A stretch of 64,000 nt of DNA. Origin: Cohaesibacter intestini (GTDB lineage Bacteria; Pseudomonadota; Alphaproteobacteria; Rhizobiales; Cohaesibacteraceae). The notes beneath the pieces are model-generated. The model saw only the letters and a program-made list of their open reading frames with translations. It was not told the origin of the DNA and did no database searches. The stretch is taken from assembly GCF_003324485.1 (NCBI RefSeq), contig NZ_QODK01000001.1, positions 496,001 to 560,000 on the forward strand, written 5' to 3'. Below, in pieces: positions 6,548 to 43,238 of this stretch. How positions within the stretch are numbered: position 1 is the stretch's first letter; each line of letters begins with the position of its first letter. The translations under genes and the position numbers were made by a program.

Positions 6548-6604
6548 AACTCTATTTGTTGCCAGCCTGATCCGGAGTTGCACAGCAATCCCCAATGCGG
6601 GCAA

Positions 6605-26709: not shown

Positions 26710-28686
26710 ATGTCGCCCACCACTCAAGACCCAGTGCAGGTGCCCAACGCATCCACCGATCCCACAGCCATTCCGACCGTGGCTCAAGACCTGCTTCGTA
26801 TTGAGGGGATGTCGGTTGATTTCTCGCTGATCGGCGGCGGACATTTCAGGGCGGTGAAAAATGCCAGCCTGCGGGTCTTGCCCGGCAAGGTGACAGCGCT
26901 GGTCGGCGAGTCCGGATCGGGCAAATCGGTCATTTCTCAGGCGGTGATGGGTATCGCGCCGAGGACGGCGACAGTCAAGGGCAATGTCTGGTTCGATGAT
27001 GCCCGCTATGACGAGCCACCAGTGGACCTGTTGACCTTGCCCAAGGACGGGCCGGAAATCCGTCATGTTCGGGGCAATCGCATCGGCATGATCTTTCAGG
27101 AGCCGATGACGTCCTTCTCGCTGATGCATACAATCGGCAACCAGATCAGCGAAAGTCTCGCCATCCATACGGATTTGTCGCCGATGGAGCAAATCGAGCT
27201 TTGCCATGAAACGCTGGCAATGGTGGGCTTTGACAATCCGCAACGCATTTATGAGATGTATCCGTTCGAGCTGTCGGGCGGTATGCGGCAGCGCGCGATG
27301 ATCGCCATGGCACTGATTTGCTCGCCAAGCCTGCTGATTGCCGACGAGCCAACCACGGCTTTGGATGTGACCATTCAGGCGCAGATCCTGAAATTGCTGA
27401 AAGATTTGCAGACCAAGCTCAATATGGGTGTGTTGCTGATCACCCATGATTTGGGCGTCGTGGCCAATATGGCCGATGAGGTGGTGGTGATCCATCGCGG
27501 CAACATTATGGAAATGGGGTCGGTGGACGACATTTTCCGCAATCCCACCCATCCCTATCTCAAGGGACTGATGGAAGCCGTGCCGCATTTCGGTATGGGA
27601 CAGGGGGATCGGCTGAAACCTCTGCGCGAGATCCCCATCGACAAGGTTCGGGGGCTCGGCAATTATACCAAACAGAGCGACGCTGCCAATGGCAACAGCG
27701 CGGGACCGCAAGTCATTCTCTCAGTGCAGGGCATCAACAAGAGCTTTGCCACCCGCAAACAGAGCTGGGGCCTGAAGGCATCGGGACATGCCCCAAAAAA
27801 AGCCGTCTCCGACGTCAGCTTCGATATTTTCAAGGGTGAATGTCTGGGACTGGTTGGGGAAAGCGGTTGCGGCAAGACCACCCTGTCCAAGATTCTGATG
27901 CGGGCACTGGAGCCCGATGAAGGGTCGATCCATTATGTGGACGAACAGGGACCAATCAATATCAGCGAATGCAACGGCGCGGCCCTGCAAGCCTTGCGCT
28001 CGGATATTCAGATGGTGTTTCAGGATCCGGTCTCGTCCCTGTCGCCGCGCATGACGGTGAAGAATATCCTGACCGAACCGCTCGACATCCACCAGTTGGG
28101 TAACCGGAAAGACCGGCTGGATGTGGCTGAGAATCTGCTCAGCGCCGTTGGGCTGGATCGTGCCTCGCTCAACCGCTATCCGCACAGCTTCTCTGGCGGA
28201 CAAAGGCAGCGCATCGGCATCGCCCGGGCCTTAGCACTTGGTCCCCGTCTGGTGGTTTGTGATGAGCCGGTCTCAGCACTTGATGTGTCGGTGCAGGCAC
28301 AGATCCTCAATCTGCTCAAGGATCTGCAATCGGAACTGGGCCTGACCTATCTGTTCATTTCGCACAATCTGGCGGTGGTCAATTATATGGCGGACCGGGT
28401 GGCGGTGATGTGTTCGGGGCGAATCGTCGAGATCGCCCCTTGCGAAGCCTTGATGGCCAATCCGGTCCATCCCTATACCCGTTCGCTACTGGAAGCGGTG
28501 CCCTATCCGGATCTTGACCGCAAGCTCAATTTCGAGATTCCGATGAAAGCCAGCAGCGCCTTGCAGGATACATGGCCGTCAGACTTCCAGTTTGACGATG
28601 AGAATGCCCTGACGATGATCGATCTGGGCGGCGACCACAAAGTGCTCGCCAAACGAGGCGCAAGCATCGAGGGAGCACAGGGATGA
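26710..28686 (+). CDS. Peptide-type ABC transporter, fused double ATP-binding protein (DppD-DppF-like)
   Basis: Two complete NBDs are joined in one 658-residue chain. In most peptide/nickel transporters these are separate D and F subunits. NBD1 has Walker A GESGSGKS, signature LSGGMRQR, Walker [13 protein letters not shown] and switch His ([10 protein letters not shown]). NBD2 has [29 protein letters not shown] and FISHNLAVV. Both carry the oligopeptide-family C-terminal extension ([30 protein letters not shown]). It is likely the energy source for import through the permeases encoded two genes on. The start at 26710 is placed by protein homology-like content. The upstream frame to 26581 overlaps the dyad. 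The next gene overlaps its stop by 4 nt. Confidence 0.94.
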
Positions 28687-30605
28687 TCACCAGACGCAAC
28701 GCACTGAGCCTGCTGGCCAGCGCCGCCACCCTGCCCTTGTTGCCGATCAGGGCCAAGGCGCAAGCAAGGGATCTGGAACCGGATTTTCTGAAAATTCTGG
28801 TCGCCAAGGGCAAGTTGCCACCCGTGGAAGAGCGGTTGCCCAGCAATCCGCGTGTCGTCAAGCTCGCTCAGATGGGGCGTGCCGCCGGACGCTATGGGGG
28901 CACATTGCGGACCCTGATTGGTGGCCAGCGGGGCATTCGGCTGGTGCCAATCAACAGCTATGCCCGCCTGATCGGCTATGACGAAGCACTCAATCTGGTG
29001 CCAGACCTGCTGGCTTCGTTTGAAGTGGACGCGGATAGCCGCGTCTTCACCTTCAAACTGCGTGAGGGGCATCGCTGGTCGGACGGGTCTCCCTTTACGG
29101 CAGAAGACTTCCGCTATTGCTGGGAAGACGTGATCCTCAATGAGGAGCTTTATCGTGGCGGTCCACCGGCCAACATGCTGATTGACGGCAAGCCACCGAT
29201 CTTTGAAGTGCTTGATGAACTCACCGTGCGTTACACATGGCACGACACGATGCCGGATTTCCTTGCCAATCTGGCCCAGCCAGTGCCACTTAAAATCTTC
29301 ATGCCATCGACCTATCTGAAGCAGTTCCACGCGAAGTACCAGCCGTCTCAGAAGCTTGAGGAGCTGTCCTACAAATATCGGGTGGATGACTGGGTACGTC
29401 TGCATAAGCGGGTTTCGCGCACCAACCGGCCGGAAAACCCCGATCTGCCGACGCTGGAAGCCTGGATGCCGCGCACCAGTCCGCCTGCAGAGCAATTTGT
29501 CTTTACCCGCAATCCCTATTATCACCGGGTGGACGAGAATGGCCTGCAACTGCCCTATCTCGACCGGCTTGAACTCAATGTCAGCACCAATGACATCATT
29601 CCGGCGGCGACCTCGAGCGGCCAGAGCGATCTGCAGTTCGGCGGCCTGACCTTCTCCGATTTCACCTTGATGAAAACCGCAGAGGAAACCAACCATATCA
29701 AGGTCAGTCTGTGGCGGCGGGCGCAGGGTTCGAGCTTCGCGCTCTATCCCAACCTGACCTATAAGGATCCGGTCTGGCGCGACGTGTTCCGCGATGTGCG
29801 CTTCCGCCGGGCGGTGTCGCTGCTGATCAATCGCGAAGAGATCAACAAAGCGCTGTTTTTCGGACTGGCGGCAGAGAGTGCCAATACGGTCTTGCCGGAA
29901 AGCCCGCTCTATAAGGACGCCTATGCGCAAGCCTATGCCCAGTTTGATCCGGACGCAGCCAACCGGCTGCTTGACGAGATGGGCCTGAAGCCAAAGCGTT
30001 TCAGTCGCCAGCGTCATTTGCCCGATGGGCGTCCAATGGACATCATCATCGAGACAGCGGGGGAAAGCACCCTTGAAACCGACATACTGGAACTGATGAC
30101 CGATCATTTCCGCCGCTGTGGCATCCGCATCTTTACCCGCTCAACCCAGCGTGAGGTGTTTCGCAAGCGGGCGATCGGCGGTGAAATCATGATGGCGGTG
30201 TGGTTCGGTCTCGACAATGGGGTGCCAACAGCGGACATTTCGCCTCAGGCATTGGCCCCGTCAGCGGACGATCAGTATCAATGGCCTGTTTGGGGTATGT
30301 ATTATCAATCCGCCATGACCAAGGGCGAGCCGCCTGACATGCCCATCGTGATGGAACTGGTGGATCTGCTCAAGCAATGGCGTCATGCGACCAACCACGC
30401 ACAGAAAACCGAAATCTGGCATAAGATGCTGCAGATCCATGCGGATCAGGTCTTTTCCATCGGGACCCTGAACAGCGCCCTTCATCCGGTCGTCTCGGCC
30501 GCCAACTTGCGCAATCTGCCGGAAAAGGGGCTTTATGGCTATTATCCCATGTCCTATCTGGGCGTCTACATGCCGGACACCTTCTGGTATGACGAGGAAA
30601 GCTGA
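28683..30605 (+). CDS. ABC transporter substrate-binding protein, peptide (SBP_bac_5) family
   Basis: This is a 640-residue periplasmic binding protein. The signal peptide has a twin-arginine look ([20 protein letters not shown], cleavage near RAKAQA), so Tat export is possible. The family core is seen in RVFTFKLREGHRWSDGSPFT, AEDFRYCWEDV, FRDVRFRRAVSLLINREEIN and LLDEMGLKPK. It is longer than typical DppA (about 510-540), with extra sequence around residues 215-260 and a long C-terminus, as in binding proteins for larger or unusual peptides or glycan-like ligands. The ligand cannot be told. It overlaps the ATPase gene (ATGA) and lies 3 bp before the permease gene. Confidence 0.92.
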   Translation: MITRRNALSLLASAATLPLLPIRAKAQARDLEPDFLKILVAKGKLPPVEERLPSNPRVVKLAQMGRAAGRYGGTLRTLIGGQRGIRLVPINSYARLIGYDEALNLVPDLLASFEVDADSRVFTFKLREGHRWSDGSPFTAEDFRYCWEDVILNEELYRGGPPANMLIDGKPPIFEVLDELTVRYTWHDTMPDFLANLAQPVPLKIFMPSTYLKQFHAKYQPSQKLEELSYKYRVDDWVRLHKRVSRTNRPENPDLPTLEAWMPRTSPPAEQFVFTRNPYYHRVDENGLQLPYLDRLELNVSTNDIIPAATSSGQSDLQFGGLTFSDFTLMKTAEETNHIKVSLWRRAQGSSFALYPNLTYKDPVWRDVFRDVRFRRAVSLLINREEINKALFFGLAAESANTVLPESPLYKDAYAQAYAQFDPDAANRLLDEMGLKPKRFSRQRHLPDGRPMDIIIETAGESTLETDILELMTDHFRRCGIRIFTRSTQREVFRKRAIGGEIMMAVWFGLDNGVPTADISPQALAPSADDQYQWPVWGMYYQSAMTKGEPPDMPIVMELVDLLKQWRHATNHAQKTEIWHKMLQIHADQVFSIGTLNSALHPVVSAANLRNLPEKGLYGYYPMSYLGVYMPDTFWYDEES

Positions 30606-30608
30606 CCC

Positions 30609-31607
30609 ATGCTGAGTTATATCTTGCGGCGCATCGTCATGATGATCCCGACCTTGCTGATCATTTCAGCCTTGGTTTTCACCATCATCCAGTTGCCCCC
30701 GGGTGATTATTTCGACAGCTACATTTCCGAGCTGCGCGCCATGGGCGAAGCCTCCGATCTGGCGGAAATCGAGGAATTGCGCGAACGCTATGGTCTCGAC
30801 AAGCCCGTGGTTGAGCAATATGTCCGCTGGGTTGGTGGCATGCTGGTGGGGGATTTCGGCTATTCGTTCGAATATCGCCTGCCGGTCAGCGATGTGGTCG
30901 GTGACCGCTTCTGGCTGACGGTGCTGGTCTCTATGCTGACGATCATCGTCACCTGGGCCCTTGCTTTCCCCATCGGCATCTATTCGGCCACCCACAAATA
31001 TAGCTGGGGGGATTATGGCCTGACCTTCCTTGGCATGATCGGCATTGCGGTGCCGAACTTCATGCTGGCGCTGGTGATTATGTATTTCTCCAACAAATGG
31101 TTCGGCATCTCAATCGGTGGGCTGATGGACAAGGCCTATCTCAACCAGCCGATGAGCTGGCCGAAATTCTGGTCGATCCTTGAGCATCTGTGGATTCCGG
31201 TGCTGATCATCGGTACGTCGGGGACGGCGGCTATGATCCGCCGCCTACGGGCCAATTTGCTGGATGAATTGCAGAAGCAATATGTCGTGACGGCGCGGGC
31301 AAAGGGGCTGCATCCCAAAAAGGTCCTGCATAAATATCCGTTGCGGGTGGCACTCAATTTCTTCGTCTCCGACATTGGCTCAATCCTGCCCGCGGTCATT
31401 TCAGGGGCCGAGGTGACGGCAATCGTGCTGTCGCTGGAGACCACCGGTCCGATGCTGGTGCGGGCCCTCAGCTCGCAGGATATGTATCTGGCCGGTTCGT
31501 TCCTGATGTTCCTCGCCTTTCTCACGGTGATCGGCATGCTGGTGTCAGACATTGCCCTTGCCTTGCTTGATCCACGTATCCGTTTCGGGGGAGGACGCGC
31601 CAAATGA
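30609..31607 (+). CDS. Peptide-type ABC transporter permease (DppB-like)
   Basis: This 332-residue inner-membrane permease starts with the DppB/OppB N-terminus (MLSYILRRIVMMIPTLLIIS, then FTIIQLPPGDYFDSYI) and contains about six helices. The EAA-type loop region lies at VVTARAKGLHPKKVLHKYPL. Features such as MIGIAVPNFMLALVIMYFS are typical of the family. It is the third gene of the operon. Its stop overlaps the next start (ATGA). Confidence 0.94.
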   Translation: MLSYILRRIVMMIPTLLIISALVFTIIQLPPGDYFDSYISELRAMGEASDLAEIEELRERYGLDKPVVEQYVRWVGGMLVGDFGYSFEYRLPVSDVVGDRFWLTVLVSMLTIIVTWALAFPIGIYSATHKYSWGDYGLTFLGMIGIAVPNFMLALVIMYFSNKWFGISIGGLMDKAYLNQPMSWPKFWSILEHLWIPVLIIGTSGTAAMIRRLRANLLDELQKQYVVTARAKGLHPKKVLHKYPLRVALNFFVSDIGSILPAVISGAEVTAIVLSLETTGPMLVRALSSQDMYLAGSFLMFLAFLTVIGMLVSDIALALLDPRIRFGGGRAK

Positions 31608-32779
31608 CTGCCATGCTGCCGCCACCTGGCGCTCCGATCAAACATTATGTCTCAGACGCCCCGTTCGACCCTTATGCGGTTGAACAGGATGAGGGCGATC
31701 AGAAAGGCCTCGCCGCCGCTTCGCAATTGCGGCTGATGTGGATCCAGTTTCGTCAACACAAGCCTGCCGTGATTTCCGGCCTGTTCCTGCTGATCTGCTA
31801 TCTGAGCATTCTGTTCAGCGAGTTTCTGGCGCCCTACAGTCTGGAAACCCGCAATCTCGACGACATCTATGCGCCACCGCAATCGATCCATTTGTTCCAT
31901 GAAGGAGACTTTGTCGGCCCCTTCGTCTATGGACGGACAATGGAATTGGACATGACCCGATTGCAGCGGATCTACACCGACGACAAGCAGGATGTGCAAC
32001 CCTTGCGGTTTTTCTGCAAGGGCGAGCTTTACAAATTCTGGGGTCTGTATGACGGCGATTTGCATCTGGTCTGCCCCGCCGAAGGGGGCAAATTCTTCTG
32101 GCTGGGGACAGATCGGCTCGGCCGGGACATTTTGTCACGCATTCTTTATGGCGCACGGATTTCCCTCACGATCGGTCTGTTCGGCATTATCATGAGCTTT
32201 GTGCTGGGCATCGTGATCGGTGGGCTGGCTGGCTATTATGGCGGGATCATTGATCTGGCCGTGCAGCGGATCATCGAAGTGCTGCAATCGATCCCGTCGA
32301 TCCCGCTTTGGTTGGCTCTGGCAGCGATCATTCCGGTGACCTGGCATCCGTTGCTGGTCTATGCGGGGATCACGCTGATCCTTGGCTTGTTGGACTGGAC
32401 GGGGCTGGCCCGCGCCGTGCGCTCCAAGCTTTTGGCCCTGCGCGAGGAAGATTATGTGCTGGCTGCCCAATTGGTGGGAGCCAAGCCTAGGCGGATCATT
32501 TTGCGCCATCTGGTGCCCGGCTTCATGTCACACCTGATTGCCAGCGCCACCCTGACCATTCCGGGCATGATTCTGGGCGAGACCGCGCTCAGTTTTCTCG
32601 GTCTTGGCCTCCGGCCGCCGATCACTTCGTGGGGTATCTTGCTGACCGAAGCCAGAGGCATAAACATAATTGCGCTCTATCCGTGGCTTTTATTGCCGGT
32701 TGTTCCGGTCATTTTGGTGATTCTGGCCTTCAATTTTCTTGGCGATGGGTTGCGTGACGCTGCGGACCCCTATAGGTAG
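31604..32779 (+). CDS. Peptide-type ABC transporter permease (DppC-like)
   Basis: This 391-residue permease is longer than usual DppC (~300). The N-terminus (~30 residues, FDPYAVEQDE...) is hydrophilic, and after TM1 there is a ~100-residue periplasmic loop (RNLDDIYAPPQSIHLF to CPAEGGKFFWLGTDRLGRDI). It then follows the OppC pattern: DRLGRDILSRILYGARISL, EAA loop EEDYVLAAQLVGAKPRRIIL and TSWGILLTEA. The enlarged loop is common in permeases paired with the larger binding proteins, which fits the 640-residue partner. It is the last gene of the operon. About 140 bp precede the next gene. Confidence 0.93.
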   Translation: MTAMLPPPGAPIKHYVSDAPFDPYAVEQDEGDQKGLAAASQLRLMWIQFRQHKPAVISGLFLLICYLSILFSEFLAPYSLETRNLDDIYAPPQSIHLFHEGDFVGPFVYGRTMELDMTRLQRIYTDDKQDVQPLRFFCKGELYKFWGLYDGDLHLVCPAEGGKFFWLGTDRLGRDILSRILYGARISLTIGLFGIIMSFVLGIVIGGLAGYYGGIIDLAVQRIIEVLQSIPSIPLWLALAAIIPVTWHPLLVYAGITLILGLLDWTGLARAVRSKLLALREEDYVLAAQLVGAKPRRIILRHLVPGFMSHLIASATLTIPGMILGETALSFLGLGLRPPITSWGILLTEARGINIIALYPWLLLPVVPVILVILAFNFLGDGLRDAADPYR

Positions 32780-32921
32780 CACCATGTTGTAGAAAAAGAG
32801 GCGCGCAGTCGCGATTTTGCCAGTGACCTACAGTTCAGAACATATTGCGTTCGAGGCCCCTGTTTCATCGGGGTTCCATACCAGCAAAGATGGCACTTCA
32901 TTCATTGACGGTGAGAGAGAC

Positions 32922-34136
32922 ATGGCACGTCGAAATCTGAATATTCGCATCATGATGTATAGCCATGACACGTTCGGGCTGGGGCATCTGAGGCGCTGCC
33001 GAACCATCGCGCATTCACTGGTGGAAGATTTCAGTGGTCTGGAAGTGTTGATTGTCTCCGGCGCGACGATTGCCGGTGCCTATGAATATCGAGCGCGGGT
33101 CGATTTCGTGAAGGTCCCCAGCGTGATCAAACTGCGCAATGGCGAATATAGCTCGATGGAAAAGCATATCGACATCAAGCAAACGCTGGCCATGCGCTCT
33201 GCCATCATTCGCCAAAGCGCCGAGATTTTCAAACCGGACATCTTCATTGTCGACAAAGAGCCCATGGGGCTGCGCGGCGAAGTGGAAGAGACCCTGCGGT
33301 ATCTCAAAGCCCATGATACCCGGTTGGTGCTGGGCTTGCGTGATGTGATGGACGCGCCCCACTTGCTTGATGCGGAATGGGCCCGCAAGGAAACGATGGA
33401 CAAGATCGACCATTTTTTCGATGAGATCTGGGTCTATGGACCGAATGACTTTTACGATCCGCTGACTGGCCTCGATGTGCCGCAGTCGGTGCGCGACCGG
33501 ATGGAGTTTGTCGGCTTTCTGCAGCGTCAGACCGCCATGTCGGATGAAGGCAGCCATGCGCTCGACGAAGGGGACTTCATTCTGGTCACGACAGGCGGTG
33601 GTGGCGATGGGGATGATCTGGTGCGCGATGTGCTCAATGCCTATCATCATGATCCCAGCCTGACGACCCGAGCCCTGATCGTTCTGGGTCCCTATCTGCC
33701 AGCTGAAGATCGCCATGCGCTGATCGAGCTTGGCGCTGACATCGATCATGTCGATATGATTGCCTTTGACAGCAAAATGGAAAATCTCGTGGCCAAGGCC
33801 AAATATGTGGTCGCCATGGGGGGCTACAACACCTTTTGCGAGATCATGTCTTTTGACAAACCTGCCCTGATCGTGCCGCGGACAGAACCGCGTGAAGAAC
33901 AATTGATCCGAACAAAACGCGCCGAAGAGTTGAATTGGGTCACAATGCTCTTACCTGAGCAGTCAAGAGATCCTGCCACCATGGCAGCCGCCCTCAAAAA
34001 ATTGATCCATCAGCCGGCCCCCTCGGCCCATGCGAATGGCATCAAACTCGATGGGCTGGTCAATATATCCGACAAGATCGAGCGTTTGTTTGTGCCGGAC
34101 GACAACGACGCAAAGAGCGAAGCCGAAAAGGCCTGA
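32922..34136 (+). CDS. Predicted glycosyltransferase, COG4671/MurG-like GT-B fold
   Basis: This protein has 405 residues. The N-terminus has IRIMMYSHDTFGLGHLRRC, the hallmark of COG4671 predicted glycosyltransferases. The C-terminal half has a MurG/GT28-like nucleotide-sugar region (VTTGGGGDGDDLV, MENLVAKAKYVVAMGGYNTF, EIMSFDKPALIVPR). No signal or transmembrane helix is seen, so it acts on the cytoplasmic side. The ATG at 32922 has GGTGAGAGAGAC just upstream. The longer frame begins with a TTG at 32817 and adds an unconserved-looking segment. It starts a five-gene rightward cluster (three transferases, an ABC exporter, a CNBD protein), with 3 bp to the next gene. Donor and acceptor are unknown. 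Confidence 0.87.
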   Translation: MARRNLNIRIMMYSHDTFGLGHLRRCRTIAHSLVEDFSGLEVLIVSGATIAGAYEYRARVDFVKVPSVIKLRNGEYSSMEKHIDIKQTLAMRSAIIRQSAEIFKPDIFIVDKEPMGLRGEVEETLRYLKAHDTRLVLGLRDVMDAPHLLDAEWARKETMDKIDHFFDEIWVYGPNDFYDPLTGLDVPQSVRDRMEFVGFLQRQTAMSDEGSHALDEGDFILVTTGGGGDGDDLVRDVLNAYHHDPSLTTRALIVLGPYLPAEDRHALIELGADIDHVDMIAFDSKMENLVAKAKYVVAMGGYNTFCEIMSFDKPALIVPRTEPREEQLIRTKRAEELNWVTMLLPEQSRDPATMAAALKKLIHQPAPSAHANGIKLDGLVNISDKIERLFVPDDNDAKSEAEKA

Positions 34137-34139
34137 ATT

Positions 34140-35396
34140 GTGACCGACAAGACCAAAATCGTCGTACTGCTGAAAGGCTATCCGCGCCTTTCAGAGACCT
34201 TCATTGCACAGGAGCTTCTGGGGCTGGAACGCGCGGGACTGGAGCTGCATCTGGCCTCGATGCGCCATCCCACCGACAAGAAACGCCATCCGGTGCATGA
34301 TGAAATCAAGGCGCCGGTTTTTTATCTGCCTGAATATCTCCATCACGAACCGTTGCGGGTACTCAAAGGACTCTGGAAAGCCGCCAAGACCCCCGGATTT
34401 GGCAAGGCCTTCAAACGCTTCCTGAGCGACCTGCCCAAAGACGTGTCCCGCAATCGGGTGCGCCGGTTCGGACAGGCAGCGGTCTTGACAGCGGAATGGC
34501 CCGAAGGGGCGACGTGGCTCTATGCCCATTTCATCCACACGCCCGCCTCCGTGGCGCTCTATGCCAGCGAAATGATGGGCATTCCTTGGAGCATATCGGC
34601 CCACGCCAAGGATATCTGGACCTCGGAAGACTGGGATCTGTCAGAAAAGCTGACGCGTGCCAACTGGACGGCAACCTGCACCAAGACCGGCCACGAGCAT
34701 TTGCAATCGCTGGCCGAAGATCCGAGCCGGGTGCATCTGAGCTATCACGGGCTCGATCTGGATCGCTTCAAGGGCAATCCGGTGCCGCTTGACCCAAGGG
34801 ATGGGTCGGATCCGGCCAATCCGGTGGTGCTGTTCAGTGTCGGGCGTCTTGTTGAGAAGAAGGGCTACGACACGCTGCTTGAGGCCTTGTCGCTGCTGCC
34901 CAAAGACCTCAACTGGCGCTTTGATCATGCAGGCCACGGGCCTTACAAGAAACAGCTGGTGGCCCAGAGCGAGTCATTGGGGATTGCCGACAAGATCAAC
35001 TGGATGGGTGCGGTCGATCAAAAAGACGTGTTGGCAGGCTACCGTGCCTCGGACATTTTCACGCTGGCCAGCAAAATCGCGGCTGACGGCGACCGGGATG
35101 GCCTGCCCAATGTGCTGGTGGAAGCCGCCAGCCAGCAGAAATGCTGTGTGGCAACCCGTGTTTCGGCAATCCCGGAGCTGTTCCGTGATGATGAAAATGG
35201 CCTTCTGGTTGACCCCGAACAGCCAGTTGCGCTGGCCCATGCTCTGGAACGGGCGATTACCGACCCGGCTTTGCGGGCCCGTCTGGGGGCACAGGCCGAG
35301 AAGGATGTGCGCAAGGATTTCGACCATAAGGTCAGTGTGTCCTTCCTCAAATCCCTGTTTATCGGTCCGGCTAAGGGTTCGGCCCCTAAAGCATAA
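34140..35396 (+). CDS. Glycosyltransferase family 4 protein
   Basis: This 418-residue GT-B enzyme begins at a GTG 3 bp after the preceding stop. Features include the N-terminal acceptor domain with KGYPRLSETFIAQELLGLER, typical of exopolysaccharide GT4 enzymes, and AHFIHTPASVALYASEMMG. The donor-binding domain has VLFSVGRLVEKKGYDTLLEA, then DGDRDGLPNVLVEAASQQKC, holding the E-x7-E-like pair. No membrane helices are obvious. It probably adds one sugar in the surface glycan or glycolipid made by this cluster. The next gene starts ~45 bp downstream. Confidence 0.92.
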   Translation: MTDKTKIVVLLKGYPRLSETFIAQELLGLERAGLELHLASMRHPTDKKRHPVHDEIKAPVFYLPEYLHHEPLRVLKGLWKAAKTPGFGKAFKRFLSDLPKDVSRNRVRRFGQAAVLTAEWPEGATWLYAHFIHTPASVALYASEMMGIPWSISAHAKDIWTSEDWDLSEKLTRANWTATCTKTGHEHLQSLAEDPSRVHLSYHGLDLDRFKGNPVPLDPRDGSDPANPVVLFSVGRLVEKKGYDTLLEALSLLPKDLNWRFDHAGHGPYKKQLVAQSESLGIADKINWMGAVDQKDVLAGYRASDIFTLASKIAADGDRDGLPNVLVEAASQQKCCVATRVSAIPELFRDDENGLLVDPEQPVALAHALERAITDPALRARLGAQAEKDVRKDFDHKVSVSFLKSLFIGPAKGSAPKA

Positions 35397-35441: not shown

Positions 35442-36605
35442 ATGGAAGAAATGGATAAGCAGAATGGGTCCGGTCGCGGCAAAAAAGTGATGTTCTATGT
35501 GCAGCATCTGCTGGGAATCGGACATCTGGCGCGGGCCAGCCGGATCTCTGCTGCGCTGATTGAAGAGGGATTCGATGTGACCGTGGTCACCGGCGGCAAG
35601 CGCGTCGAAGGGTTCCCCGGCAAGGGCATCAAGCATGTCGCACTGCCCGGCATTGCGTCGGACAATGCAAGCTTTTCAAAACTGATCGATGAGAATGGCA
35701 CGCCGGTTGATGACGCTTTCAAGGCCATGCGGGCTGAATTGTTGATCAAGACCTATCACGACATCGCACCGGACTTCGTGCTGGTCGAGGCCTTTCCGTT
35801 TGGCCGCCGTCAGGTGCGGTTCGAGTTGCTGCCGCTGATGGAGACCATTCAGGCAAGCGACAACAAGCCGATCGTCATCGGCTCGGTGCGCGACATTCTG
35901 CAAGAAAAGATCAAGCCGAGCCGCAATGAGGATACGGTTCAGTATATCGATCAGTATTTCGATCATATCTTCGTCCATGGCGACCCCGACTTCATGCCGT
36001 TCGAGGCGACCTTCCCGCTGTTTGACCGAATCAAGGACAAGGTGCGCTATACGGGCATCGTCGCGGCGCCACCGCCAGAGGAACCAGAGGACACGTTTGC
36101 CGTTGTTGTGTCGGCTGGCGGCGGTGCGGTTGGCCGCGATTTGGTCACGGCAAGCCTTGAAGCCGCCAAAAACAGCCCCCTGCCTGGCAATTGGTGCATC
36201 ATCACGGGGCCCAATCTGCCGCAAGTTGAGTTTGAGCAATTTCGCGCCGATGCCCCCTCTCATGTTCAGATCGAGCGGTTTCGCACAGATTTTGCCAGCC
36301 TATTGAAGGGGGCTTCCCTGTCCGTGTCACAATCGGGTTATAATACGGTCTGCGATATTCTGAGGGCGCAGTGTGGCAGCGTTCTGGTGCCATATACCAG
36401 TGGAGGAGAAACCGAACAGACCCGCCGGGCGGAAAAGCTGGAGGGGCTGGGTCTGGCAACTTATCTGAATTCGGATGATCTGAGTGGACCGACGATTGTG
36501 GCCGCCATGCGCGAGGAAATGGACAGGATGGCGCGACGCCCTGCCTTCAAGATTTCTCTCGACGGGGCGAAGACCACTGCGCACATGCTCCGCGCACTTG
36601 CCTGA
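35442..36605 (+). CDS. MurG-like glycosyltransferase, related in design to the first gene of the cluster
   Basis: This 387-residue GT-B enzyme has an N-terminal motif KVMFYVQHLLGIGHLARASR that parallels the GLGHLRR motif of the gene at 32922. Its C-terminal motifs (VVVSAGGGAVGRDLV, FASLLKGASLSVSQSGYNTV, LVPYTSGGETEQTRRAEKLE) match the nucleotide-sugar half of GT28/COG4671 proteins. The two genes may be diverged paralogues flanking the GT4. It is followed after ~100 bp by the ABC exporter gene. A role in the same glycan is inferred from the order. The substrate is unknown. Confidence 0.88.
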   Translation: MEEMDKQNGSGRGKKVMFYVQHLLGIGHLARASRISAALIEEGFDVTVVTGGKRVEGFPGKGIKHVALPGIASDNASFSKLIDENGTPVDDAFKAMRAELLIKTYHDIAPDFVLVEAFPFGRRQVRFELLPLMETIQASDNKPIVIGSVRDILQEKIKPSRNEDTVQYIDQYFDHIFVHGDPDFMPFEATFPLFDRIKDKVRYTGIVAAPPPEEPEDTFAVVVSAGGGAVGRDLVTASLEAAKNSPLPGNWCIITGPNLPQVEFEQFRADAPSHVQIERFRTDFASLLKGASLSVSQSGYNTVCDILRAQCGSVLVPYTSGGETEQTRRAEKLEGLGLATYLNSDDLSGPTIVAAMREEMDRMARRPAFKISLDGAKTTAHMLRALA

Positions 36606-36706: not shown

Positions 36707-39421
36707 ATGGAACGAAACCTGATTCGATATATCTGGACGCATACCAAGCAAGAGCAGTTGATTGTTCTGACGCTCGTCCTGTTGTCGATGATCCCCTATT
36801 ATCTGGCGCTTGATCTGCCCAAGCAGATCGTCAACGGACCAATTCAGGGGCAGGGTTTCGAGGCGGAAGGCGCCACACAGCTCTTTTTCCAGACCATCAT
36901 CGACCTGCCCTACTTTGGCTCGGTCGAACTGTTTCCCGGCATGGAGCTGGATCGGCTCGATTCCCTTTGGGCGCTGAGCGCGCTGTTTCTCGCCTTTGTC
37001 ATCATCAAGGGCATTTTCAAGCTCAACATCAATACCTTGAAAGGACGGCTCGGGGAACGCCTGCTGCGCCGCATCCGCTATCAACTGGTCGATCGCATCC
37101 TGCGCTTTCCTCCCAGCTATTTCAAACGGGCCAAGGCCGGTGAAATTTCGAGCATGGTCAAGGACGAGGTGGAGCCGATGGGCGGCTTCGCCGGGGATGC
37201 CTTCGTCCAGCCCGCCTTGCTTGGTGGGCAGGCGCTGACCGCGCTGACCTTCATTTTCGTTCAGCATTTCTGGCTCGGCATGATTGCCGTATGCATGGCC
37301 TTGTTTCAGGCCTTCATCATTCCGAAGATGCGCATGCGGTTGATCGAGTTGGGGCGGCAGCGGCAATTGACCGCCCGTCAGCTGGCCGGTCGGGTGAGCG
37401 AAATCATCGATGGCATCCAGACAATCCACGCCTACGACACGTCCAACTATGAGCGTGCCGGGATTGGCGGATTGTTGGCCACGATCTTCAAGATCCGCTA
37501 CGACATCTATCAATGGAAGTTTTTTGTCAAATTTCTCAATAACTTCCTTGCCCAACTAACGCCGTTCCTGTTCTACAGCATCGGCGGCTATCTGACCATC
37601 AAGGGTGGTCTGGATGTGGGGCAGCTGGTCGCCGTGATCAATGCCTATAGCGAGCTGCCCGGACCGCTGAAGGAGCTGATCGACTGGGATTTGGCGCGGC
37701 AGGATGTGCAGGTCAAGTATGAGCAGGTGATCAACCAGTTCGAGCATGACGACATGTTGGCGTCTGACATGCAGGCGATCAATGGCAATGCCGACCAACC
37801 GCTGCCGTTGCCCCTGTGCGCTGCCAATGTGACGCTGGAGGATGAGTCCGGGGCAGTTTTGTTGCGCAATGCCACCGTCCGCATCGAGAAGGGTGAAACC
37901 GTCGCCTTCGTCGGAGGAGCCAGCAGCGGGGCCTCGCCGCTGGCGCAATCCCTCTCGCGCCTGTTGCCGCCTGTGAGCGGGCGCATTCAGGCTGGGCAAG
38001 TTGATCTCTACAGCCTACCGGAGACCATCACCGGACGGCGGATCTCCTATGCTTCCAACGATCCCTATCTGTTTGTCGGTACGCTGAAGGAAAATCTGAC
38101 CTATGGGTTGAAGCATGAACCGGTGGCCGTGCATTTGGTGTCCGAAAGTGAACAGGCACAGAAAAAATGGGAGTATTCAGAAGCCAGGCGGACCGGCAAT
38201 CCGACGCTCGACATCCATTCGGACTGGGTGTCGGAGAATAGCATCTTCCGGCCCGGATCAGGGGCCGATACCGGTCTGGCGGCTGCGCGCGTGGTGTTCG
38301 ATACGGTGCAATTGACCGGTGACATTGTTGATTTTGCCCTCAATACCATCGTTGATCTTGAGGCTTATCCGGACATTCGCAACACCATCCTCAACCTGCG
38401 CAAGGATTTTCGACAGGAGCTTGAAGCCCGCGGAATCACCGACCTCGTCGCACCATTCGAATTTGAAGGCTTCAATGATCATGCGATGCTGATCGAGAAT
38501 TTTCTGTTCGGCAATGTGGTCGATCCGGAAAATACCATGCCGCTGATCGCCGAGAATTCCCACTTCGGCAAGGTCATGTCCGATACCGGGCTGGATGTCG
38601 ACTTTTTCGAAATGGGCCGAACGATCGCCGCCAACCTTGTTGAATTGTTTGCTGATCTACCCGAAGACCATCCGTTCTTTCAGAATCTCGACCATATCAC
38701 GGCGGATGACATTGCAGCGCTGGGCAAAATCCTGCCCAAGGTGGAAAATCGCGCCATGCGTCAGGTGAACAGGGACAACACCATCCCCTTCATTCGGCTG
38801 GCGGCGATCTATATCGAGCCACGCTATCGTCTCGGCCTGTTGACTGATGCGATGAAGAAGAAAATCATCGCAGCCCGCAAGCGCTTCCATGCGGCGCTGG
38901 ATCCGAAGCTGCTCACCTTGATGGATCCCTACAAGGCAGACAGCTATCTCACTTCGGCCAATCTTCTGGAAAATATCCTGTTTGGCAAAGTGGACATCAG
39001 CTATGGCGACGCTTCCCGACAAATCCGCAATATCCTGTCGGATCTGCTCGGGCGCCATCAGGAGTTGAACTTTGCGATTATGAAGCTCGGTCTCGACTTC
39101 AATGTCGGCGCTGGTGGCAGGCTTTTGACCGAGGCCCAGCGGATCAAAGTGGGGCTGGCGCGGGCCATCATCCGGCGCTCGGACTATTATATCCTCAACC
39201 GTCCCATTGCCGGCTTTGACCCTGATATTCAAGACGAAATTGTCCGTGACACACTGGCGTTGCTCAGTGAATCGGCCGACAATCCCGGTGTAATCTGGGT
39301 CCTTTCACATGAGAGGTTTACGAAGTTTTTCCAGCGTGTTAGCATCTTTGAGCAAGGCACGTTAAAAGAAGACTGTGCTCTTGAAGACTACATTCAAAAA
39401 ACTAAATCTAATAAGAGCTAG
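36707..39421 (+). CDS. ABC exporter with interrupted, catalytically atypical nucleotide-binding domain
   Basis: This protein has 904 residues. An ABCB-type membrane domain occupies ~1-340 (MERNLIRYIWTHTKQEQLIV, GRLGERLLRRIRYQLVDRIL, YHYD-like SEIIDGIQTIHAYD). The NBD starts normally (AANVTLEDESGAVLLRNATV), but the P-loop reads VGGASSGAS with no lysine (~403), and the Q-loop reads YASNDP. After TLKENLTYGL (~465) come about 270 residues of unknown, mostly helical sequence. A second ENL-like segment (TSANLLENILFGK) then leads to signature LTEAQ (~807) and Walker B-like YYILNRP, where Asp-Glu is Asn-Arg. The switch His is kept (VLSHERF). It is likely a glycolipid or glycan exporter, or a regulated/non-hydrolysing relative. 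The ATG at 36707 has AAAGGTGAG upstream. Confidence 0.87.
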   Translation: MERNLIRYIWTHTKQEQLIVLTLVLLSMIPYYLALDLPKQIVNGPIQGQGFEAEGATQLFFQTIIDLPYFGSVELFPGMELDRLDSLWALSALFLAFVIIKGIFKLNINTLKGRLGERLLRRIRYQLVDRILRFPPSYFKRAKAGEISSMVKDEVEPMGGFAGDAFVQPALLGGQALTALTFIFVQHFWLGMIAVCMALFQAFIIPKMRMRLIELGRQRQLTARQLAGRVSEIIDGIQTIHAYDTSNYERAGIGGLLATIFKIRYDIYQWKFFVKFLNNFLAQLTPFLFYSIGGYLTIKGGLDVGQLVAVINAYSELPGPLKELIDWDLARQDVQVKYEQVINQFEHDDMLASDMQAINGNADQPLPLPLCAANVTLEDESGAVLLRNATVRIEKGETVAFVGGASSGASPLAQSLSRLLPPVSGRIQAGQVDLYSLPETITGRRISYASNDPYLFVGTLKENLTYGLKHEPVAVHLVSESEQAQKKWEYSEARRTGNPTLDIHSDWVSENSIFRPGSGADTGLAAARVVFDTVQLTGDIVDFALNTIVDLEAYPDIRNTILNLRKDFRQELEARGITDLVAPFEFEGFNDHAMLIENFLFGNVVDPENTMPLIAENSHFGKVMSDTGLDVDFFEMGRTIAANLVELFADLPEDHPFFQNLDHITADDIAALGKILPKVENRAMRQVNRDNTIPFIRLAAIYIEPRYRLGLLTDAMKKKIIAARKRFHAALDPKLLTLMDPYKADSYLTSANLLENILFGKVDISYGDASRQIRNILSDLLGRHQELNFAIMKLGLDFNVGAGGRLLTEAQRIKVGLARAIIRRSDYYILNRPIAGFDPDIQDEIVRDTLALLSESADNPGVIWVLSHERFTKFFQRVSIFEQGTLKEDCALEDYIQKTKSNKS

Positions 39422-39479
39422 TCTGGCATCGTCGTTTCTTTGAACCCCAAACCCCGATTTCCGGGTGAGGATCTTTCGG

Positions 39480-39926
39480 ATGCTGTTGTGTGATGAAGTC
39501 GAGACGTTAACCCATACGTCTTTGTTTGAATGCCTGGACAAGACCAAGCTGAAGCTCCTGGCATTCAATTCTGATCGCGTGAAATTCATGCCTGGGCAAA
39601 CCTTGTTTGCGCGGGGCGATGAAGGTGACTTTGCATTTGTGGTCTTGAGTGGTCAGGTGGACGTGTTCGTCGATGTCGGCGAGGGTGACCGTCAGAAAGT
39701 CCGGGAAGCTTCGAATGGGGATCTGATCGGCGAAATGTCAATCATCGCCAACCGCCCGCACCAGAAAACCGCCATTGCCAAGACATCGACAGAAAGTTTG
39801 CGGATTGGCAAACAGTGCTTCCTGAAAGTCATTGAGGGATGTCCAAAAACATCTGCCAACGTGATTTCCCATTTGGGGCACCGCCTGTCGGAAGAAACCC
39901 GCAGCATGGAAAATCCGGTTTCCTGA
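39480..39926 (+). CDS. Cyclic nucleotide-binding (CRP-like) domain protein without DNA-binding domain
   Basis: This 148-residue cytoplasmic protein is essentially one cNMP-binding beta-roll: LFECLDKTKLKLLAFNSDRV, MPGQTLFARGDEGDFAFVVL, then the phosphate-cassette region GDLIGEMSIIANRPHQKTAI. The cassette Gly-Glu is present, and the usual Arg contact is plausibly in NRPHQ. There is no helix-turn-helix and no enzymatic domain after it. The ATG at 39480 has GGTGAGG 9 nt upstream. It lies ~60 bp after the atypical ABC exporter. A role as a nucleotide-responsive subunit for that exporter or cluster is inference. Confidence 0.88.
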   Translation: MLLCDEVETLTHTSLFECLDKTKLKLLAFNSDRVKFMPGQTLFARGDEGDFAFVVLSGQVDVFVDVGEGDRQKVREASNGDLIGEMSIIANRPHQKTAIAKTSTESLRIGKQCFLKVIEGCPKTSANVISHLGHRLSEETRSMENPVS

Positions 39927-40054: not shown

Positions 40055-40816
40055 TCAGGACTTGATCAGAGTGGCCGGGTCGATCCAATGGCAGGCCGCA
40101 TGGGATGTCGTGATCTCGAATAGCCGTGACAGAAAGCCCGTTGCCTGATCGTCATGAACCAGATGATGGGTCAGAATACCGATAACCTCATCGGAACCAC
40201 TGGATTGAATCAGACCAGTCATCTCGTTGAATAGCGCATCGGATGGACGACCAATGCTGCCTGCCTTCCAGTTGATGATATCGACATGGGTCTCGTGAAA
40301 AGGCAGGGCATGCGATGCCTTCCAGCCAGACTTTTTGTCGTGAAAGGTAGACAGTGCCCGATAGCCGATCGCGCTTAGAGGATCGACCAACGCCGGGTCG
40401 ATCCGGTTCCATGGCGGCACCAGCATTGGGATGCATTGTTCGCCATAAAGACAAGCCAGTTTGTTCAAGCCTGCCTCAAGCTCCGCCAGAACCGTTTTCA
40501 TGGGACGGTGAAGCCCCAGCTCCTGCTTTTTCTCGCCGGGTGCCGCATGATTCTGATGCGACCAGCCATGCACGGCCACACGGACACGATCCGCCCCGAA
40601 GGAGGTCAGACAGGACTGCAGCGCCTCTCCGGTTTCCTGGGGAATGACCGCCAGCAAGGCGGGAATGGCGTGCTGTCCTGCACCGTCAAGAAACCGGGTA
40701 AGCTTGTCGCTTGGCTCCACCGCATCATCGTCTCGGAGCCAAAACCGGATGCGGCGGCCCGCTCCGGCCTTGGTGTCGAGCGCCTCGATAAATCGCTTAT
40801 CTGGTGTTGTTGGCAT
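40055..40816 (-). CDS. Polysaccharide deacetylase (NodB-like) family protein
   Basis: This 253-residue protein without a signal peptide shows the divergent carbohydrate-esterase-4 pattern: FWLRDDDAVEPSDKLTRFLD (acidic motif 1), VAVHGWSHQNHA (metal His pair), MLVPPWNRI (motif 3 Arg-like) and GILTHHLVHDD near the C-terminus (motif 5 His). Similar cytoplasmic-looking NodB relatives are found beside GT4 genes in glycan clusters. It probably deacylates a sugar in the polysaccharide pathway. It is the last gene of a leftward three-gene operon (lyase-like, GT4, deacetylase). Confidence 0.85.
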   Translation of the reverse strand: MPTTPDKRFIEALDTKAGAGRRIRFWLRDDDAVEPSDKLTRFLDGAGQHAIPALLAVIPQETGEALQSCLTSFGADRVRVAVHGWSHQNHAAPGEKKQELGLHRPMKTVLAELEAGLNKLACLYGEQCIPMLVPPWNRIDPALVDPLSAIGYRALSTFHDKKSGWKASHALPFHETHVDIINWKAGSIGRPSDALFNEMTGLIQSSGSDEVIGILTHHLVHDDQATGFLSRLFEITTSHAACHWIDPATLIKS

Positions 40817-40873: not shown

Positions 40874-41974
40874 CTAGTAGCCCGCATAGGCTTCCTGCAA
40901 AATGGCATCAAGCCGATCTGCTGCTTTTTCGAAAGAATGATCCGCTAAGACATGGGCACGGGCTTGTTCGCCCTGCCGGATCCGCTTTTCCTCATCCAGC
41001 AATAAATCGCGTATGGCGGCGGCAAGGTGCACGGGCTCCTGCGGGGTAACGAGGGTACCACCCTCCCGGTCAGAGACCACCTCGGGCACTCCGGTGACAT
41101 CATAGGCGATCACCGGCACACCCATCGCCTGTGCTTCCAGATAGGCAAGGCCATAGGCTTCACCGATGCCCGGCCAAAGATAGAGCGCCGAACGACCAAG
41201 GATTTGCCGAACCTCTTCCGGCGGTTGCTGGCCGTGAAAAGTGACACGCTCAGGACCAAAGGCGGCAAACAGACTCTCGACCTGCGCCCGCTCTGTTCCA
41301 TCGCCGACAATATCAAGCTGCCATGGCTCGGTATCAAGCATCGAGAGGGCCTGGCTCAGATGGCTGTAGCTTTCAAGCTTGTCCCCTGGTCGCATCATGG
41401 CAACCGTTGCCAGCGCCTGTGCCGGTCGGCCCCTGACGGGAGGCGCTTCCCGGAAAGCGTCGACCTTTAAAAACGGCTTGATCTGATCGATCCGGACATT
41501 GGGGTTGGCCTCCAGCAGACCACGGGCATCGCGCCGGGTGATGCAGATGTTGGAGACGGCCTGACCAATCGCTTCGCGCACAAATTCCTGCAACGGCGCC
41601 CAACCTGCCGCATCGCGCCGCCGGGAATGGGAGGCTTCAAGCGTCACATAGGGAATGGCATATTTGCGACAGAGCGTGGGGCCGAGCAGGTCGGGCGATT
41701 TGTAATAGGGGTGATAACTAAACCACAAATCCGGTAGATTGCCTTCCTTGGCAAACAAGGTGTCTAGCCGCTGGAATTCCAGCGCAGCGGCTTCGCGCAG
41801 TGCGCTCACGCCCGCACCATCAGGCTCTCTGGTAAAGGCCCGCAGCTGCGATATCACCTCGACCTGATGTCCCTTGGCCTGCATCGCCTCGATCAGCATG
41901 CGCGCCATCAGACGGTCACCGGAAGGGGTCGGGTGATTGGGAGACTTCAGCGGTGCGTAGAAAGAAATTTTCAT
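40874..41974 (-). CDS. Glycosyltransferase family 4 protein
   Basis: This GT-B enzyme has 366 residues. The N-terminus MKISFYAPLKSPNHPTPSGD is the GT4 start, with the nucleotide-sugar domain LDIVGDGTERAQVESLFAAF and the conserved GIGEAYGLAYLEAQAMGVPV containing the Glu pair. No membrane helices are seen. It lies between the lyase-like gene (8 bp upstream) and the deacetylase gene (58 bp downstream), suggesting joint action on one polysaccharide. Donor and acceptor are unknown. Confidence 0.92.
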   Translation of the reverse strand: MKISFYAPLKSPNHPTPSGDRLMARMLIEAMQAKGHQVEVISQLRAFTREPDGAGVSALREAAALEFQRLDTLFAKEGNLPDLWFSYHPYYKSPDLLGPTLCRKYAIPYVTLEASHSRRRDAAGWAPLQEFVREAIGQAVSNICITRRDARGLLEANPNVRIDQIKPFLKVDAFREAPPVRGRPAQALATVAMMRPGDKLESYSHLSQALSMLDTEPWQLDIVGDGTERAQVESLFAAFGPERVTFHGQQPPEEVRQILGRSALYLWPGIGEAYGLAYLEAQAMGVPVIAYDVTGVPEVVSDREGGTLVTPQEPVHLAAAIRDLLLDEEKRIRQGEQARAHVLADHSFEKAADRLDAILQEAYAGY

Positions 41975-42974: not shown

Positions 42975-43238
42975 TATGGGCTCCTCCCTCGGGCACTTGC
43001 TTCCCTTGATTTCCCTGCCGACAGAGGTAAGGAATTTGAGGCATGATTTCAATTGGTTGTCTATCCAATCGCGGCATCTCAACGCCTTTGACTGTCATAA
43101 TTTCGTTAACAAAATCGCGAGCGGACCAAAGCGATGGAAATTCGCTCGATTGGCTCCTATATTCCCGACAGAGGGCGCGGTTCGCGCGAGGCACGCCCCG
43201 AGCATCTGTCCCTTTCAAAGAAGAAGCGAGTTTTCCTC

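Follow-up and report, generated by a model that had tools for sequence, protein, structure and literature searches.

What could be the role of an exporter whose ATPase domain (NBD) has lost its catalytic residues and grown by some hundreds of residues, given that a cycle driven by ATP is what defines an ABC transporter? This question is raised by a gene of Cohaesibacter intestini that lies within a 64,000-nucleotide stretch of contig NZ_QODK01000001.1 (positions 496,001 to 560,000 of the forward strand), here termed the window and numbered from its first letter. No paper on the family was found among open-licence PMC papers, and its annotated relatives are named plain ABC transporter or ATP-binding proteins.

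An exporter architecture with degenerate motifs

The gene (36707..39421, + strand) encodes a pseudo-ATPase ABC half-exporter of 904 aa, recognized by PF00664 together with a partial PF00005 match. The initial annotation described a full-length open frame with an intact membrane half, broken catalytic motifs and about 270 additional NBD residues, and these claims were borne out. The frame begins with ATG, with AAGGTGAG immediately 5′ of it, and the transmembrane domain (TMD; residues 1–345, 36707..37741, +) matches PF00664 at residues 87–311 (2.6e-27, above the Pfam cut-off). The N-terminal part of the NBD (residues 366–447; 37802..38047, +) is modeled in blocks of pLDDT 80–95, and the PF00005 match starting at residue 386 (2.1e-9, above cut-off) covers just the first 88 of 137 profile positions. 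The Walker A motif reads GGASSGAS (residues 403–410; 37913..37936, +), with Ala409 at the position of the Lys, and the Walker B motif reads YYILNRP (residues 827–833; 39185..39205, +), with Asn831 and Arg832 at the positions of the Asp and Glu. The degenerate signature reads LTEAQ (residues 807–811; 39125..39139, +), and Asn451 occupies the position of the Q-loop Gln. Thus, the MsbA-like architecture of the ABC exporter superfamily, i.e., an ABC_membrane TMD and, after it, an ABC NBD fold, is present, while neither the Walker A consensus GxxGxGK[ST] nor the Walker B Asp with the catalytic Glu is found; the protein passes one of six catalytic tests, that for the H-loop His (His868). A replaced Q-loop Gln was also read, as previously noted, in the T1SS pair of the window, where the segment is VSYQPDHP in the 831-aa ORF (2205-4700, −) and VAYVPNGP in the 635-aa ORF (4697-6604, −).

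The predicted models are of moderate confidence (pLDDT 69.8 and 76.9; pTM 0.56 and 0.63), with high confidence for the core NBD fold. The full-length model matched ABC exporter structures in Foldseek with E 2.7e-13, and exporters of the MsbA/PCAT1/TmrAB type were the best matches in both PDB-sequence and Foldseek searches; TM-scores by query length to these half-size exporters were about 0.3–0.37, being low because of the insert and the moderate-confidence models. CFTR NBD1 was also among the structural matches. The likeness to MsbA, PCAT1 and TmrAB comprises the TMD fold and the core NBD fold (PF00664 and PF00005), whereas the window family differs by its lost motifs, by two extra helical/signature units and by the usual partnership or fusion with a cyclic-nucleotide-binding-domain (CNBD) protein. 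Against the NCBIfam model of the MsbA lipid A flippase, TIGR02203, the window protein scored 125.3 bits, below the cut-off of 602.

Repeat units and conservation across the family

Among 387 alphaproteobacterial genomes sampled, 149 gave a match to the family, and a search of 397 genomes of the phylum gave one match outside Alphaproteobacteria, the TMD-only ORF G546. A homologue is found in Sinorhizobium meliloti. Within the genus of the window the family is accessory, since only 1 of 17 other genomes carries a member (E ≤ 1e-30). For alignment, 139 NBD-bearing members were assembled from 142 rows by adding the window and removing one duplicate, the two TMD-only rows (L077 and L078) and L082, a further copy of the window gene; later loci (L171-L195, L196-L200 and L205-L208) lie outside this set. 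The members were chosen as best matches with hand picks for diversity, so that counts over 139 members or 118 loci are non-independent, as they include near-copies and two loci from some genomes.

The extra residues are a property of the family: 234–312 residues stand at this place in 139 of 139 members. The insert is therefore not a recent mobile element confined to one strain, and homologues with an intact P-loop and no insert, which would speak against the initial annotation, were not seen among them. A profile search with the insert alone returned from Pfam only DUF6854 (E 0.012, below cut-off) and nothing from NCBIfam; an unrelated domain was set aside, as internal repeats explain the segment better. 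Two ENILFG-like segments were counted previously and a duplication of NBD sequence was suggested; the count was too low, as three are present (TLKENLTYG, MLIENFLFG and NLLENILFG), while the duplication gained ground through profiles with shuffled controls and through repeated Asn and Arg residues.

In place of the single Q-loop/helical/signature unit of a normal NBD, the window NBD has three in tandem. The unit U1 (residues 448–580; 38048..38446, +) contains the Q-loop Asn451, the ENL Asn463 and a LAR-type Arg565, and was defined by profile comparison, in which it was entered as residues 440–580, and by conserved columns. U2 (residues 581–735; 38447..38911, +) carries Asn598 and Arg724, each kept in 139/139 members, and was recognized by HHalign against U3. 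U3 (residues 736–835; 38912..39211, +) contains Asn756, LTEAQ, Arg819 and the Walker B position and matches canonical NBDs. Comparisons of the units with each other scored 42.6, 47.5 and 82.6, versus maxima of 15.1, 16.6 and 16.1 from 30 column shuffles per unit pair, the pair U2–U3 reaching the HHalign score of 82.6 against 16.1. Across the 139 members the "ENL" Asn463, Asn598 and Asn756 are kept in 133, 139 and 139, and the "LAR" Arg565, Arg724 and Arg819 in 139, 139 and 135. With four canonical NBDs from the same genome, U3 aligned over 83 columns (E 2e-16), U1 over 30 columns only and U2 weakly over 34 columns (E 0.00029, probability 40.5%). Since the latter alignments are short or weak, the NBD origin of U1 and U2 is argued from their likeness to U3 together with the recurring Asn and Arg. 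At the sequence level, derivation of the insert from copied NBD sequence is supported, given the three ENL-FG segments.

The survey of homologues showed degraded motifs throughout, with no member passing more than 3 of the 6 tests. The Walker A Lys is found in 53/139 members and GK[ST] (Lys, then Ser/Thr) in 4/139, the Ser/Thr position being Glu or Asp in 101/139. Walker B Glu is retained in 56/139 and Asp together with Glu in 6/139; the His of the H-loop, counted over two neighboring alignment columns, in 34/139; the signature Gln in 123/139 and the D-loop Asp in 114/139. Because Lys and Glu persist in these 53 and 56 members, and Lys, Glu and His together in 18/139, nucleotide binding or hydrolysis may persist in part of the family. 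The 39 members of the clade of the window (FastTree support 98) include none with the Walker A Lys or the Walker B Asp, 7 with Glu, 2 with the Q-loop Gln and 3 with His.

The TMD is the best conserved of five regions (65 of 345 columns at ≥90%), with a mean modal identity of 0.624 versus 0.482–0.523 in the four NBD regions. Compared with the congeneric ortholog, dN/dS was 0.073 for the whole gene, 0.101 for the insert and 0.048 for the C-terminal part; over four pairs the whole-gene value was 0.044–0.103, with a paralog pair near saturation (dS >1), and the highest regional values were 0.163 (insert, Shinella) and 0.144 (first NBD part, Sinorhizobium). Judged from these ratios, purifying selection is maintaining all parts of the ABC gene. 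The initial proposal of selection for a non-hydrolytic or regulated function is supported to this extent; "non-hydrolytic" as a blanket term does not fit the 18 members that keep Lys, Glu and His.

The CNBD partner and the glycosyltransferase neighborhood

Directly downstream lies a gene for a CNBD protein of 153 aa (39465..39926, +; PF00027 3e-20, 72.4 bits against a cut-off of 27.5). A CNBD adjoins the ABC gene downstream or is fused to it at 100 of 118 loci under a strict rule (same strand, with the CNBD starting between −200 and +600 bases relative to where the ABC frame ends, each frame running stop-to-stop) and at 108 of 118 by a relaxed rule (CNBD stop 200–1800 bases beyond the ABC stop); the relaxed rule found none at 10 of 118 loci, where, as throughout, flanks were uneven (about 4–10 kb, shorter at contig ends). 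At 13 of the CNBD-bearing loci the CNBD is fused in frame, in such cases at the C-terminus of the ABC protein, and a further fused protein outside the 118, L026, carries PF00664, PF00005 (25.2 bits against a cut-off of 25) and PF00027 on a single polypeptide. The window's own genome (4.79 Mb) has nine PF00027 matches, and two of them come after its two family genes. By comparison, 11 TMD-only relatives showed no CNBD match in the flanks searched, with L237 (which runs off its contig) set aside, L201 left out and L203, L204 and L236 belonging to one genus.

The phosphate-binding cassette of the window CNBD has the Gly-Glu and carries His in place of Arg, a loss shared with the congener, while the Arg is kept in 104 of the 108 CNBDs counted, the window included. 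The paralog of the same genome, on contig C6, keeps the CNBD Arg and has a cyclase alongside; no cyclase or MBL gene was found around the window copy, over about 10 kb. The case for gating by cyclic nucleotides is therefore weakest at the window copy, and with the phosphate-binding Arg lost there and in the congener, this copy may work without a ligand, be constitutive or be regulated by a protein.

Upstream of the ABC gene are ABC importer genes of the window-type operon (a substrate-binding protein and two permeases by annotation of relatives; 28683..32779, +), a GT28-like glycosyltransferase of the same operon (32817..34136, +; PF04101, searched from 32922), a GT4 glycosyltransferase (34140..35396, +; PF00534) and a second GT28-like enzyme (35442..36605, +; PF04101). 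Downstream, on the opposite strand, follow a polysaccharide-deacetylase-like protein (40055..40816, −; PF01522 0.0052 and PF10096 0.0024, both below the Pfam cut-off) and a GT4 glycosyltransferase (40874..41974, −; PF00534 4.8e-29). Raw neighbor counts at the 118 loci, with uneven flanks, were 72 for GT28-type and 77 for GT4 enzymes, 24 for cyclases and 21 for MBL hydrolases. The CNBD link, the operon and the class-wide family are additions to the initial annotation.

The S. meliloti homologue (L080) stands in an importer-GT-GT-GT-ABC-CNBD array. In the same species, the MsbA2 operon (SMb21188-SMb21191) also combines an ABC exporter with glycosyltransferases and was proposed to export an unknown polysaccharide (PMC3687685, PMC12239276). 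However, as described there it consists of an acyltransferase, two GTs and msbA2, with no CNBD, and the homologue of the window protein was set apart from MsbA2 on this ground.

Two of the TMD-only relatives adjoin TolC-family and copper-oxidase genes, and in L202 and L078 PF00664 is the sole Pfam match at E ≤ 0.01. SbmA/BacA-like peptide transporters have an ABC-exporter-like TMD without any NBD and are driven by the proton gradient, thus offering a precedent for NBD-free working of such a TMD, unlike the window protein, which retains an NBD; the SbmA_BacA Pfam model gave no match in the window protein (E ≤ 1) or in L202 and L078 (E ≤ 0.01). The Pycsar anti-phage system consists of a Pycsar cyclase and a toxic effector and would imply a defense context. 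PADLOC matched the CNBD to PycTIR (4.8e-11) and the cyclase of locus L071 to PycC (3.1e-20), and at 0.001 neither the ABC protein nor the MBL hydrolase of L071 was matched; for a defense reading the matches are thus confined to CNBD and cyclase, and they may reflect shared domains only.

A transporter switched without ATP?

The explanation that we prefer, at a probability of about 0.45, is that the protein is a non-hydrolytic translocator of a glycan or glycolipid, whose pseudo-NBD would be the platform on which the CNBD partner docks and through which it gates the transporter. In this mainly alphaproteobacterial family, at least in the clade of the window, the protein would no longer be an ATPase and would dimerize like other MsbA-like exporters, as the common D-loop Asp suggests. 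The cargo, guessed from neighboring genes, would be a glycolipid or lipid-linked glycan that the GT28/GT4 enzymes produce, and it would cross the inner membrane by downhill scrambling or be driven, either by the proton gradient or through coupling to its synthesis. The CNBD partner would open and close the transporter through the enlarged pseudo-NBD as a lever, the signal in many members possibly being cAMP or cGMP. More tentatively, the family may be a cyclic-nucleotide-gated ABC transporter, in which docking of the CNBD on the three-lobed pseudo-NBD replaces the ATP switch and a glycolipid is moved without ATP under second-messenger control.

Could the ATP site instead be supplied by another protein? 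The window protein might be the degenerate half of a heterodimer, the canonical ABC half-exporter that completes it being encoded at another place in the genome, as its half-size TMD-NBD architecture would allow. Foldseek matches of the full model include the heterodimeric TmrAB and TM287/288, the latter having one degenerate site. The two halves of such heterodimers are generally encoded next to each other, but a crude scan of the 118 loci showed a canonical TMD-NBD exporter nearby in just one, so a locally encoded partner was rejected; moreover, two repeats enlarge the NBD, for which we know of no counterpart in heterodimer halves. Known type I exporters do pair a degenerate with a canonical site, and NBDs of Pdr5 and ABCG5/G8 have lost the Walker A Lys, Walker B Glu, H-loop His or signature residues (PMC7756269). 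TAP (ABCB2/B3), Pdr5 and ABCG5/G8 resemble the window protein in residue loss within the NBD, yet they keep a canonical site, whereas at 117 of 118 loci no such partner is near and the NBD is enlarged. We regard a heterodimer as unlikely. The NBDs might also bind ATP (or cNMP) and close with little or no turnover, making the protein a slow ATPase, or an ATP-gated channel or sensor comparable to CFTR or SUR. In these two, the fold of an ABC exporter has become a gated channel or a regulator that uses ATP in a non-standard way, and both bind ATP; to our knowledge, a CNBD and triplicated helical subdomains are absent from both. The predicted core NBD fold, the retained D-loop Asp and signature Gln, the Lys of 53 members (often before Glu or Asp) and the 18 with Lys, Glu and His fit such a switch, but the clade of the window has neither the Walker A Lys nor the Walker B Asp, and an acidic residue replaces Ser/Thr in 101/139, which makes this a doubtful account.

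A regulatory or scaffold protein without transport activity, which would bring the glycosyltransferases together at the membrane and act as a sensor of cyclic nucleotides, would explain why both kinds of gene often adjoin. The TMD, however, is the best conserved region and exists without an NBD in relatives, of which two have TolC-family and copper-oxidase genes as neighbors; this fits a transport role, and we find a regulator or scaffold quite improbable. Broken catalytic motifs and the patchy presence in the genus could likewise point to a decaying gene or an assembly artefact, but the insert common to all aligned members, the low whole-gene dN/dS in four pairs and a congener whose frame is likewise open, at 91% identity, leave this reading hardly credible.

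With its tandem helical subdomains, degraded catalytic motifs and usual CNBD partner, the family would provide a test of whether an ABC exporter fold is able to function, and to be turned on or off, when ATP plays no part. The TMD-only cousins are a natural comparison for the NBD-bearing members, and the S. meliloti homologue offers a tractable plant symbiont as a host for study.

The divided nucleotide-binding domain

The gene at 36707-39421 (+ strand), starting with ATG at 36707, encodes a 904-residue ABC exporter composed of an ABC_membrane domain, forming the transmembrane domain (TMD), and a nucleotide-binding domain (NBD). The initial annotation described degenerate motifs and an NBD split by about 270 residues, and the window sequence bears this out: the P-loop reads GGASSGAS, Asn451 stands at the Q-loop Gln position, the signature and Walker B read LTEAQ and YYILNRP, the Pfam ABC_tran match is confined to the first part of the NBD, and ~270 additional residues separate it from the C-terminal part. 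The NBD model (pLDDT 76.9, pTM 0.63) matches the NBDs of ComA, TAP1 and CFTR, and the model of the whole protein matches TmrAB, PCAT1 and MsbA; some parts of the insert have pLDDT below 60, so that its predicted tertiary arrangement is provisional.

At the level of sequence, the insert is a repeat. HHalign scores among three tandem units, U1 (residues 440-580), U2 (581-735) and U3 (736-835), were 42.6 for U1-U2, 47.5 for U1-U3 and 82.6 for U2-U3, against maxima of 15.1, 16.6 and 16.1 in 30 column shuffles per pair. The pattern TL-ENLLFG ... GL ... R is common to all units; among 139 family members the Asn of ENL (463, 598 and 756) is retained in 133, 139 and 139, and the Arg (565, 724 and 819, the last being the Arg of LARAL) in 139, 139 and 135. 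U3 aligned to four canonical NBDs of the same genome over 83 columns (E 2e-16), U1 to such NBDs over 30 columns (E 6.7e-9) and U2 weakly over 34 (E 0.00029). The predicted helices agree with the repeats: besides other helices, each unit has one at ENL and a longer one at the Arg position. The NBD thus contains three helical/signature units versus one in a normal NBD.

Family spread, catalytic motifs and selection

Judged by homologous sequences, this architecture is that of a family and not an oddity. The same genome carries a second copy on another contig (33% identity over 1-898, P-loop GGDGSGRT). At E ≤ 1e-30 the family was matched in 21 of 61 near genomes, own genome counted; within the genus just one of 17 further genomes matched, and this lone congener also has both copies. 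Named genomes, including Shinella, Rhizobium, Sinorhizobium, Neorhizobium, Paracoccus and Loktanella, yielded 25 loci, and 298 plasmid records matched at 1e-30 (262 with query coverage of 80% or more). Profile searches at 1e-60 matched 149/387 alphaproteobacterial genomes (a few partially) and, phylum-wide, 39/397, with one match outside the class, which is TMD-only. Locus L081 adjoins the Rhizobium leguminosarum locus L079 in the tree, and the genome of L081 shares its assigned order with that of the window, which therefore most likely belongs to Hyphomicrobiales. Five loci (L196-L200) form a subfamily with strongly diverged TMD and shorter first unit, the later NBD repeats being the same, while the ORF at L125 (genome G172), a 1386-residue stop-to-stop frame, exceeds other members in length.

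Motifs were counted in 139 NBD-bearing members, the window protein among them. The Walker A Lys position is occupied by K in 53, R in 41, A in 24, G in 15 and others in 6, followed by Glu/Asp in 101; Lys and Ser/Thr occur together in only 4. Walker B Asp is present in 24 members, Glu in 56 and both in 6, the Q-loop Gln in 28 and the H-loop His, at either of two columns, in 34. No member passed more than three of six motif tests and 49 passed none; the D-loop Asp (114/139) and signature Gln (123/139) are retained. In a FastTree phylogeny of the TMD, the clade that holds the window protein (39 rows, support 98) has neither Lys nor Walker B Asp in any row. Lys versus non-Lys requires at least 17 changes over the TMD tree, and well-supported branches impose 11 of these.

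The family genes are under purifying selection. Between the window gene and its congener, dN/dS was 0.057 for the TMD, 0.058 for the first NBD part, 0.101 for the insert and 0.048 for the C-terminal part; three other pairs gave whole-gene values of 0.044-0.103, with single regions up to 0.163.

Two adjoining T1SS-like ABC ORFs of the window (2205-4700 and 4697-6604, - strand) are unevenly decayed: the former retains GPSGGGKS and FLDEP and lacks a normal signature, the latter lacks Walker A and has LEEA. The Q-loop Gln, annotated earlier as replaced in this pair, is indeed missing from both. A repeat-rich 2674-residue ORF (6815-14839) adjoins them.

Gene neighbourhood and the CNBD partner

In the window, genes for an importer substrate-binding protein, permeases and GT28-like, GT4 and GT28-like glycosyltransferases precede the ABC gene, which is followed by a cyclic-nucleotide-binding domain (CNBD) protein (39465-39926) and, on the opposite strand, a deacetylase-like protein and GT4. 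A polysaccharide lyase (41982-43082, - strand; PF14099, 2.4e-31) shares this glycan region. Largely the same order recurs at Shinella, Rhizobium, Sinorhizobium, Phyllobacterium and Paracoccus loci, and many deeper members have glycosyltransferase genes divergently upstream. Among 118 loci with uneven flanks, GT28-type genes neighbour 72, GT4 77, deacetylase-like 31, class III cyclase 24 and MBL hydrolase 21. A CNBD is adjacent or fused at 100/118 by a strict rule (13 fused) and 108/118 by a relaxed one; nine PF00027 matches occur in the own genome, two of which follow its two family genes. Pfam confirmed a fused protein at L026 (not among the 118), the cyclase and MBL protein of L071 and a ferredoxin-cyclase at L057. 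The latter (11242-12942), a class III cyclase that also carries a 2Fe-2S ferredoxin domain, adjoins an ABC-CNBD pair, which suggests a possible redox input; the cyclases closest to it are also found at L033, L048 and L050.

TMD-only relatives without NBD also exist (L077, 8797-10266; L078, 8770-9972; L202, 5926-7200; L203 and L204). Two such relatives lie on Phaeobacter plasmids, next to TolC-family and copper-oxidase genes, and L202-L204 have neighbour families in common with these. A second, more distant group (L231-L236, frames of 332-406 residues, 28-32% identity to L202) occurs in other alphaproteobacterial genomes. No CNBD match was found at the 11 TMD-only loci examined, and the contrast with the relaxed count, resting on a small, related sample, suggests that the CNBD acts on the pseudo-NBD, i.e., the NBD with lost catalytic motifs. 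The phosphate-binding Arg is retained in 104/108 CNBDs, and only those of the window, its congener, L042 and L207 lack it. The window cassette reads PHQKTA, common to the congener, versus PRTA in most relatives.

A possible mode of action

To our knowledge, neither an ABC NBD composed of tandem helical subdomains nor an ABC exporter family with such a CNBD partnership has been described, and a literature search of open-licence papers turned up neither. Degenerate ABC sites are well known, though accompanied by a canonical one (PMC7756269). Beyond the anatomy, CNBD association and selection observed here, we infer that the transporter would not hydrolyse ATP, that its substrate may be a glycan or glycolipid and that the CNBD partner would gate it through the pseudo-NBD; the energy source of translocation is likewise presumed. 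The members that retain Lys, Glu and His together (18/139) may still make some use of ATP. Ligand gating seems doubtful in the window copy, since the Arg is missing from its CNBD and a search of about 10 kb around it detected no cyclase. Of the readings considered, the likeliest is a non-hydrolytic glycan/glycolipid translocator, which the CNBD partner would gate through the pseudo-NBD.
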